In this document: positions 47,602 to 49,616 of the stretch, piece after piece | How the letters are laid out: each line of letters starts with the position of its first letter | Numbering within the stretch: the first letter of the stretch is position 1 | Assembly: GCF_002723935.1 (NCBI RefSeq) | Contig: NZ_BEWM01000002.1 | Coordinates: 62,001 to 126,000 of the forward strand | DNA length: 64,000 nt | Direction of reading: 5' to 3' | Source of the DNA: Gluconobacter cerinus | GTDB lineage: Bacteria; Pseudomonadota; Alphaproteobacteria; Acetobacterales; Acetobacteraceae | The notes under the pieces: generated by a model | Database searches by the model: none | What the model was told of the DNA's origin: nothing | What the model saw: the letters and a program-made list of their open reading frames with translations, nothing else | Translations under genes and position numbers: made by a program

Positions 47602-48213
47602 TCAGGCTAGAATCACGTTCTCCTGACGCAGCTTCTCAAGAAGCGAAAGCCGTGGAAGTCCAAGGATAGCATCCTGATCGCCCGAAATTTTGGAAAACAG
47701 CTGAATACCCAAGCCTTCCAGCCGATAAGCCCCTACGCAGGACAGTATCCTGTCCCCCTCTTCTCTTAGATAGAGCTCCAGAAATTCATCGGAAAAGGGG
47801 CGCATCGTCATTTGAGGAATAGCGAGTGTCTCCCAGATTTTCTGTGTGCCCCGATACAGAACGACAGCCGTCTGAAGGATATGCGTGCGGTTTCGAAGGC
47901 ATTTAAGATGCGTCTTCGCCTCATTGAGATCCTGCGGCTTCGCAAAGGCTGTTCCGTCCAGATCGAGGATCTGGTCAGCCGCGATAATCAGACTGGTGTC
48001 CGGCGATACGTCGGCCGCAAGCCTCGCTTTGGCATCCGCGAGAGCCAAAGCCGTGTCTCCCAGAGATTTTCCTTCACTTTCACACTGCTGGCGCAAGGCC
48101 TCTTCATCCAGATCTACCGGTCGAACCTGAATGATCAGACCACTCTCTTCCAGAAGTACTCGCCGGGCACTCGAGCCACTTGCGAGGATTATGGAATTAT
48201 TGAGCAAGGTCAT
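47602..48213 (-). CDS. maf: Maf-family nucleotide pyrophosphatase
   Basis: Maf proteins remove non-canonical or modified nucleoside triphosphates. The 203-residue protein has the N-terminal ILASGSSARRVLLEESGL, LALADAKARLAA, the catalytic AADQILDLDGTAFAKP and the C-terminal ILGLPRLSLLEKL. The start at 48213 has GGAG ten bases upstream; an upstream GTG (48246) is an alternative. maf next to hemE at the origin is a well-known alphaproteobacterial arrangement. The intergenic segment 48214-48566 is the proposed origin. Confidence 0.92.
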   Translation of the reverse strand: MTLLNNSIILASGSSARRVLLEESGLIIQVRPVDLDEEALRQQCESEGKSLGDTALALADAKARLAADVSPDTSLIIAADQILDLDGTAFAKPQDLNEAKTHLKCLRNRTHILQTAVVLYRGTQKIWETLAIPQMTMRPFSDEFLELYLREEGDRILSCVGAYRLEGLGIQLFSKISGDQDAILGLPRLSLLEKLRQENVILA

Positions 48214-48248
48214 AAGATGCGACTCCAAACTATCGACGGCGAGCACGA

Positions 48249-48496
48249 GTACCAGTACTGCGTATGACCCGGTGAAAAGATTGTGTCAGTACTGGGGTAC
48301 ATGGGGACAGTACTTGAAGTTTGCGGGAAGGTACCGAGTACCGTGGATTGTTGGGTACGCCCCCAAATTTTGGGGGTTGTACACAGGGGGTCTGTGAGCA
48401 AATCGGGATAGAATCCTGCACCCCCTTGTCCACTGCGGGTTTTGCAGTTGTACACAGTGTGAGTAAGACGGGGTACATTTTTAGAGAGCCGGGTAC
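48249..48496. repeat. Dense GTAC motif array within oriC
   Basis: GTAC occurs 12 times in 248 bp (48249, 48255, 48289, 48297, 48310, 48331, 48338, 48355, 48379, 48450, 48473, 48493), against about one expected by chance. They fall in recurrent forms: CAGTACT (48253, 48287, 48308), GAGTACC (48247, 48336) and GGGTAC (48295, 48353, 48471, 48491). Two of them are the centres of the TTGTACACA DnaA-like boxes. Confidence 0.85.
48360..48376. repeat. 17-bp palindrome in oriC
   Basis: CCCCCAAA and TTTGGGGG form a perfect 8-bp inverted repeat around a single T. It abuts a TTGTACACA DnaA-like box on its right side. Confidence 0.8.
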
Positions 48497-48566
48497 CCCG
48501 GTATCCACAGGGATCATCCTATCCTCCAGGATTTCTTTCTTATTTCTTTCATGGTTAGTGAGCGGC

Positions 48567-49616
48567 ATGAATTCGGAAAACGCACCCCTCTCCCCATCCT
48601 CGAAACCGCTCCTGAGAGCTCTCAAGGGTGAAGCTGTCTGGCCCCCGCCGGTCTGGCTCATGCGGCAGGCAGGGCGTTACCTTCCCGAATTTCGTGCCAT
48701 GCGTGACAAAGCTGACTTCCTGACGCGCTGCATGACTCCGGACATGGCTGAAGAACTCACCCTTCAGCCGATCCGCAGGTATGGAATGGACGGAGCAATC
48801 CTGTTCTCGGACATTCTCATCCTGCCCTGGGCAATGGGTCAGTCCCTTGAATTCATTGATGGTCGGGGCCCGGTTCTTGGCGCCATCCGTTCTCAGGCAG
48901 ATCTGGAAAAACTTGATCCCAAGCGTGTACAGGACGCCACGGCACCTGTTCGGGAAACACTCTCGCGACTGAGTAAATCACTCCCAGATGTCACGACATT
49001 GCTCGGCTTTGCCGGCAGCCCATTTACGGTCGCCTGTTACATGGTTGAGGGCGGTGGATCGCGGGATTTCGCCAATACCCGCAAAATGATGCAAACTGAT
49101 CCAGCGCTGTTTGATCGTCTGATTGAAACCCTGACGATCAGCACAGCGGAGATGCTTTGCGGTCAAATTGAAGCGGGCGGTGAAGCTGTCATGCTCTTTG
49201 ATTCCTGGGCTGGAATTCTCCCTCCCAACGCATTTCGTCGCTATGTGATTGAACCTACCCGGCAGATCGTGCGTCATATCCAGGAGAAGCATCCGAATAC
49301 GCCGATTATCGGTTTCCCGCGCCTGGGAGGAATCATGATACGCGAATACGCAGAAAAGACGGGGGTCAATACGCTGGCGCTCGATACAGTGGCCGATCCG
49401 GCGCAGATTGCGGAGCTGGTACCAAACGTGACGCTGCAAGGGAATATGGACCCGATGGTCCTGTTTTCTGGCGGTGAGGCCATGGTGCGTGAAGCTCAGG
49501 GGATCCGGGACGCGCTTCGTGGGCGTTCGCATGTTTTCAACCTGGGACACGGCGTTATGCAGCACACACCGCCTGAAAACGTCGGTGCCCTCGTTGAGGC
49601 GGTGCGCGCGATATGA
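48567..49616 (+). CDS. hemE: Uroporphyrinogen decarboxylase
   Basis: HemE decarboxylates uroporphyrinogen III in haem synthesis. The 349-residue protein starts MNSENAPLSPSSKPLLRALK. It has the signature PPVWLMRQAGRYLPEFRAMR, then FSDILILPWAMGQ with the catalytic Asp, and GFAGSPFTVACYMVEGGGS. The start at 48567 is set by homology and by the oriC segment upstream; the frame extends to 48321 only within the proposed origin. hemE, a HAD gene and hemJ form a coupled cluster; the haem need is plausible given the cytochrome-rich oxidative metabolism. Confidence 0.96.
   Translation: MNSENAPLSPSSKPLLRALKGEAVWPPPVWLMRQAGRYLPEFRAMRDKADFLTRCMTPDMAEELTLQPIRRYGMDGAILFSDILILPWAMGQSLEFIDGRGPVLGAIRSQADLEKLDPKRVQDATAPVRETLSRLSKSLPDVTTLLGFAGSPFTVACYMVEGGGSRDFANTRKMMQTDPALFDRLIETLTISTAEMLCGQIEAGGEAVMLFDSWAGILPPNAFRRYVIEPTRQIVRHIQEKHPNTPIIGFPRLGGIMIREYAEKTGVNTLALDTVADPAQIAELVPNVTLQGNMDPMVLFSGGEAMVREAQGIRDALRGRSHVFNLGHGVMQHTPPENVGALVEAVRAI

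Follow-up and report, generated by a model that had tools for sequence, protein, structure and literature searches.

Why should a stretch of non-coding DNA between two genes be filled with copies of one four-letter palindrome? This question is raised by the gap between a maf-like gene and hemE in the window, a 64,000-nucleotide stretch of the Gluconobacter cerinus genome, for which an earlier note had reported twelve GTAC words in 248 bp, about one expected, and the recurring forms CAGTACT, GAGTACC and GGGTAC. We found this description to be accurate. GTAC starts at positions 48249, 48255, 48289, 48297, 48310, 48331, 48338, 48355, 48379, 48450, 48473 and 48493, in the forms CAGTACT (three sites), GAGTACC (two), GGGTAC (four) and TTGTACACA (two), and base composition predicts 1.38 occurrences for the whole 353-bp gap. 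Dinucleotide shuffling of the gap gave a mean of 2.13 (sd 1.30) and a maximum of 9; none of the 20,000 shuffles reached twelve, which rules out chance or composition as the source of the array. The accumulation is a local one: with 77 GTAC words found and 84.6 expected, the full window shows no enrichment, and no other tetramer in it piles up as strongly within 248 bp (40-fold relative to its own window-wide frequency, with 26-fold for the next). An additional GTAC lies at 48156, within maf. Across the whole genome, GTAC triples occur at 30 places, eight of which are in the array. A second, small cluster of five GTAC in 43 bp is located at G000:C1:543684-543726 (G000 denotes this genome; about 1500-1545 in locus L035), flanked by an aat-looking ORF and a small ORF.

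Table 1. Features in and around the maf-hemE gap, in window coordinates
Feature	Position	Strand	Basis or remark
maf-like gene, left neighbour	47602..48213	-	
maf-hemE gap, holding predicted oriC and GTAC array	48214..48566 (353 bp)	.	skew change and conserved alignment
GTAC array, 12 sites	48249..48496 (248 bp)	.	counts and site retention
DnaA-box-like TTGTACACA, GTAC inside	48377..48385	+	2 mismatches to TTATCCACA; conserved in alignment
DnaA-box-like TTGTCCACT	48426..48434	+	2 mismatches; kept in near relatives only (alignment)
DnaA-box-like TTGTACACA, GTAC inside	48448..48456	+	2 mismatches; conserved, partly as CTGTACAC
DnaA-box-like GTATCCACA	48501..48509	+	1 mismatch; 5 bp past the most widely kept GTAC (GGTACCCC)
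T-rich stretch adjoining hemE	48531..48553	.	conserved in alignment
hemE, right neighbour	48567..49616	+	

HemE of the window is 98% identical to that of Gluconobacter sp. Gdi, in keeping with its assignment to Gluconobacter. The array is widely conserved among the Acetobacteraceae. In 66 of 80 named loci of this family, the 500 bp upstream of hemE contain 10-16 GTAC words, compared to 0.2-2.7 per kb elsewhere in the locus, and of all 256 tetramers GTAC is the one in greatest excess in each of the 66 array loci. Upstream of hemE, two deep MAGs show 6-7 copies, and twelve loci (Bombella, Saccharibacter, Parasaccharibacter, L060 and L072) have 0-2 at hemE, four of which were traced to a relocated element. 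Retention of the window's twelve sites in the 66 array loci (eleven Bombella, Saccharibacter, Parasaccharibacter and L060 loci as well as L072, L106 and L114 were excluded) amounts to 0.92 in Gluconobacter, 0.83 in Neokomagataea and Komagataeibacter, 0.75 in Acidomonas, Gluconacetobacter and Novacetimonas, and 0.73 in Acetobacter, as against 0.49 down to 0.08 for tetramers that do not overlap GTAC sites; the GTAC value was reached by none of 5,000 random draws in each of the seven genera. Nine sites (48289, 48297, 48310, 48331, 48338, 48379, 48450, 48473 and 48493) are kept by a fraction of 0.71 or more of the loci in each genus, site 48355 is variable, and sites 48255 and 48249 occur in Gluconobacter only and in few Gluconobacter, respectively. 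Hence, the array is conserved in other Acetobacteraceae, which the earlier note had named as a check of its proposal, and in seven of seven genera the word accumulates at orthologous positions of non-coding DNA, as in known origin clusters of solitary methyltransferases. Since the flanking bases differ even within one origin, so that its sites share the palindrome alone, the common denominator is the GTAC palindrome, as would be the case for a methyltransferase site. Upstream of hemE in two deep MAGs, L106 and L114, two of the positions occupied by GAGTAC in array genera read GAGTC, which belongs to the GANTC words; it looks as though one methylation word had replaced the other.

Judged by nucleotide skew, DnaA-like boxes and relocation, the maf-hemE gap is the chromosomal replication origin. 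In the window, GC skew over 15 kb is -0.048 to the left of the gap and +0.022 to its right, and the cumulative curve is lowest at 46-48 kb. The near-complete genome G005 (two contigs) shows a single change from negative to positive skew among 20 sampled 20-kb stretches, from -0.113 at 948-968 kb to +0.087 at 970-990 kb, and its array core is located at 968.8 kb; skew changes back between 1.96 and 2.14 Mb, and it is on this terminus side that dnaA is found, at base 70 of the 2.16-Mb contig (2163 kb). The skew change is weak in G109, where the element is still at hemE (-0.002 and +0.045, in short stretches). We considered the array as a possible terminus because dnaA is about 0.4-0.5 of a chromosome away from it in the near-complete genomes G005, G012, G109, G053, G161 and G086; the direction of the skew change in G005 rules this out. 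In the array-less genome G105, dnaA is likewise about 0.4-0.5 of a chromosome from the corresponding place, and in the genome of the window it is found at G000:C3:281208-282545.

The relocated elements separate the array from its usual neighbour genes. In four genomes, G382 (B. apis, L065), G072 (B. dulcis, L059), G140 (Saccharibacter, L062) and G394 (a MAG, L072), the element lies 19-26 kb from hemE and is whole, with 10-13 GTAC, the TTGTACAC words and the GGTACCCC block. Skew changes sign across it in all four (-0.076/+0.102, -0.079/+0.067, -0.097/+0.106 and -0.065/+0.085), and in G382, G072 and G140 the stretch towards or around hemE keeps the sign of its own arm, the DNA beyond hemE being little sampled. 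The sign change thus moves with the element, which indicates that the array travels with the origin and, together with the skew in the window and in G005, agrees with its proposed role as an origin element. Lying as it does in the window between two divergently transcribed genes, maf and hemE, the array would also suit a promoter or regulatory region of one of them without any part in the origin, a reading that we reject, and to which we give next to no credence, on the relocated element of Bombella, Saccharibacter and the MAG, with which the skew change goes along. In L255 and L257 (out of L254, L255, L256 and L257), the relocated element adjoins an ORF that resembles, judged by eye, a GMC oxidoreductase.

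According to two publications on Acetobacter genomes (PMC3751514, PMC13209655), oriC is close to dnaA; these predictions may be misplaced. No GTAC cluster was found upstream of dnaA in 30 genomes, where up to 400 bp (fewer bases where the contig begins near dnaA) contain 0-2 GTAC.

Within the gap, the T-rich stretch adjoining hemE is a possible unwinding region, and the DnaA-box-like words (Table 1) raise the question whether the GTAC sites themselves are a degenerate family of DnaA boxes, as the earlier note had suggested. Two of the twelve, both TTGTACACA and two mismatches away from TTATCCACA, do lie inside DnaA-box-like 9-mers (at most two mismatches), and several others adjoin DnaA-like words in the alignment. 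The remaining ten, however, are linked to DnaA boxes at that threshold by adjacency only, their flanks differ, and the DnaA recognition helix of the array species reads GNRDHTTVMHA, which we take to be the canonical one. Moreover, the hemE gap of the array-less G105 (L193) is filled by ordinary boxes: its 600 bp contain no GTAC, and a relaxed pattern matches 14 DnaA boxes there, many of which are plain TTATCCACA on reading. A DnaA-box cluster is therefore not sufficient as sole explanation, and we regard a degenerate box family, the less supported part of the earlier note, as very improbable. CtrA sites have the form TTAA-N7-TTAA. The 353-bp gap contains no TTAA, which speaks against a CtrA-controlled origin with such sites and agrees with the earlier remark that CtrA sites look different; CcrM-type words do not explain the array either, with two GANTC in the gap.

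Which protein, then, could act on these words? The genome of the window encodes two methyltransferases of family PF01555. One is of the CcrM type; the other, P0001, is a solitary enzyme of 276 amino acids that is encoded elsewhere in the genome than the array and carries a TSPPY motif, which suggests m4C as its product. P0001 scores 69.2 bits against the NCBI CcrM model, far below the cut-off of 830. Its neighbourhood, viewed in 34 loci of 33 genomes (its own counted twice) that are mostly nearest relatives and mostly span about 3.8 kb, includes mltA in 34 of 34 and tim44 in 33 of 34 loci. An RsaI-like nuclease, searched for with two phage R.RsaI proteins as queries (E 1e-4), is found beside the enzyme in none of the 34, which leaves it without a cognate restriction gene as neighbour throughout. 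We consider P0001, a solitary and vertically inherited enzyme that probably belongs to the M.RsaI kind of DNA methyltransferases, the best candidate partner of the array. It gives a concrete face to the unknown origin-control protein of the earlier note; a separate reader protein may exist in addition, and none was found. Two further enzymes were dismissed as partners: CcrM, as the CcrM-type gene persists in the array-less genomes G105 and G069, and MethyltransfD12 (PF02086), which is present in 9 of 21 genomes without a match in the genome of the window and is thus no candidate. In the deep genomes G106 and G181 (contigs G106:C1 and G181:C1), the P0001 orthologue is located about 8-9 kb from hemE, which may point to a former linkage of the enzyme gene to the origin; where other genomes have the two genes on one contig, they are far apart.

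Phage homologues provide a clue to the specificity of P0001. At E 1e-25, 11 of 498 matching phage records remain; the best is an unannotated uncultured phage, and the other ten are cyanophage records. The ACG-2014j homologue P0003 is 42% identical to P0001 over 257 amino acids (2% gaps), and in both ACG-2014j and Syn19 the methylase gene overlaps a gene that its depositors annotated as R.RsaI. The two nucleases are 40% identical over 131 amino acids and match a PADLOC type II nuclease model (E 1.6e-11 for Syn19, E 0.0014 for ACG-2014j). One ACG-2014f record and two Paracoccus plasmids contain homologues without an R.RsaI-type neighbour. P0003-like enzymes (E below 1e-30) are encoded in 4 of 385 alphaproteobacterial genomes, all Acetobacteraceae, with G105 among the 385 and without such an enzyme; the PADLOC nuclease family PDLC03550 had no match in 385 alphaproteobacterial genomes, a result that carries no weight as the controls were equally silent. 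M.RsaI makes m4C in GTAC (PMC6256690), and M.PabI, another GTAC methylase, is mentioned in a passage of PMC4357717 as producing m6A. Based on the homologues beside R.RsaI-annotated genes, P0001 most likely puts N4-methylcytosine on GTAC.

Across the family, the array goes with the enzyme in one direction only. An array core (at most one mismatch) was detected in 95 of 397 family genomes, the 95 coming from 18 genera, while 170 of the 397 encode a P0001 orthologue (E below 1e-80); 57 weak ones among the 227 P0001 matches (E 1.5e-58 or weaker) were counted as no orthologue. All 95 core genomes have the enzyme, and 75 enzyme-bearing genomes are without the core. Among 72 further genomes (from 80 of 94 listed, after removal of two without hemE match, one short contig and five that were viewed separately), at least four GTAC within 600 bp of hemE are present in 12 of 32 with the enzyme and in none of 40 without it (Mann-Whitney p 5e-7, a value that ignores kinship), the other 20 enzyme-bearing genomes having at most three. 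Incomplete assemblies in the enzyme-less group may be false negatives, as G044 and G115 are congeners of the enzyme-bearing G142 and G181. As all core genomes have the enzyme and many enzyme genomes are without the array, the enzyme looks needed for the array, judging by these gene and word counts, and not sufficient. A similar difference is seen at a single position, a homologous GTAC before a DnaA box, which is present in 29 of 29 anchored genomes with the enzyme and in 13 of 39 without it (3 of 32 and 1 of 40, respectively, were unanchored). In the enzyme-less G067 this GTAC is shifted by one base and would raise the count to 14 of 39, and 12 of the other 26 enzyme-less genomes read TGCNTCCCC at the homologous place.

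The HemE tree (73 rows, short search; ten named rows of unverified enzyme status excluded) places a clade of 12 genera with neither enzyme nor GTAC at its base. In the acetous clade (18 rows, 99% support), 16 of 18 have at least eight sites, counted at hemE or, where the element has moved, at its new place. The other two, the sister genera G105 and G069 (96%), branch from within the array clade; they are without the enzyme and have 0 and 1 GTAC, respectively. Their genomes are 100% and 98% complete, in three contigs and one contig, and by score a CcrM-type gene is retained in both. This tree implies 14 changes of the enzyme and 5 of the array. Tree-aware pairing gave three supported pairs, with a mean of 2.1 changing the same way and none the opposite way. 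This is not significant, and with only three supported pairs the test is underpowered and significance out of reach. With the enzyme as first trait, there are six pairs, of which 1.3 go the same way and 4.7 show no difference.

These distributions also bear on another explanation, in which the GTAC words are sites of a sequence-specific origin-control protein of the Acetobacteraceae and the methyltransferase merely shares their history or acts elsewhere. Such a protein would account for sites that are conserved in position and not only in sequence, for deep enzyme-bearing genera that often have one site only, and for the single homologous GTAC in those 13 enzyme-less genomes, and OpaA of Caulobacter is an example of a further origin-binding protein in the Alphaproteobacteria (PMC4468827). 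However, flanks that vary within one origin leave only a 4-bp palindrome to be recognized, arrays occur only with the enzyme, enzyme and array are jointly missing in G105 and G069, and the phage homologues adjoin R.RsaI-annotated genes. A binding protein of this kind is therefore unlikely in our view, although clearly less so than a box family.

We consider it probable that the GTAC array at oriC is the target of P0001 and thus the m4C counterpart of Dam and GATC, with both the methylation and the control being what we infer from genome comparison. P0001 would methylate the GTAC words of oriC, probably as m4C, and initiation would leave about a dozen sites of the origin, within or next to DnaA boxes, in the hemimethylated state. 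Hemimethylation could then alter the binding of DnaA, either directly at TTGTACACA or via a reader protein, and this altered binding would last until re-methylation, thereby delaying re-initiation and limiting the origin to one firing per cycle. The logic would be that of Dam and GATC at the E. coli oriC, with another enzyme and another word. A more far-reaching proposal, which we put forward tentatively and hold to be true with perhaps one chance in three, is that the Acetobacteraceae have a licensing mark of their own: m4C on GTAC, set by a domesticated writer of the M.RsaI type at words within (TTGTACACA) or beside DnaA boxes, where hemimethylation itself would switch DnaA without a SeqA-like protein, and where loss of the enzyme would force the origin to be rebuilt from plain boxes, as G105 suggests.

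Comparison with known systems supports placing the array in an existing category. The E. coli oriC contains about 11 GATC, with SeqA as their reader; we know of no SeqA for the GTAC system. The Dam system of Enterobacteria and other Gammaproteobacteria likewise consists of a solitary methyltransferase and a short palindrome that is clustered at the origin and occurs together with the enzyme, as also stated in Blow 2016 (PMC4752239). P0001 differs from Dam in its family (PF01555), its word and its probable product, m4C rather than m6A, and the array differs in that its sites lie partly inside DnaA boxes and that there is no cluster at dnaA. Blow 2016 describes four cases in which the word of a solitary methyltransferase is clustered at the origin, including those of Arthrobacter (TTAA), Nocardia (CTCGAG) and Haloarchaea (m4C; CTAG in the figure legend, CATG in a text line), and GTAC and Acetobacter do not appear in its main text. 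These cases share with ours a conserved non-coding cluster at the origin and a solitary enzyme, in one of them an m4C enzyme, and the GTAC array additionally shows relocation with the origin and joint loss with the enzyme. The likeness to the RsaI system consists in the phage homologues of P0001 that overlap R.RsaI-annotated genes and in the m4C that M.RsaI makes in GTAC; in contrast to that system, P0001 has housekeeping neighbours and no nuclease, and the likeness runs via the phage homologues, not via the sequence of M.RsaI. CcrM, whose word is GANTC, belongs to the same PF01555 family and is represented by its own gene in the genome of the window, but P0001 falls short of its model, and CcrM-type genes remain where the array is gone.

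The array is a real, conserved origin element, which is best read as a member of the known kind of origin clusters with a solitary methyltransferase. What is probably new is the word GTAC, its probable m4C mark and the occurrence in Acetobacteraceae; among the matches listed in our search of the open-access literature, no title dealt with a GTAC or m4C origin system of acetic acid bacteria. If our reading is true, these bacteria would have independently recruited a methyl mark, probably m4C, for origin control, in a family without a described one in the literature searched. Such a system would be open to experiment in harmless bacteria of the food industry, the lineage of G105 and G069, which is without both enzyme and array, would provide a natural control, and the origin would be placed elsewhere than predicted in two published Acetobacter genomes.
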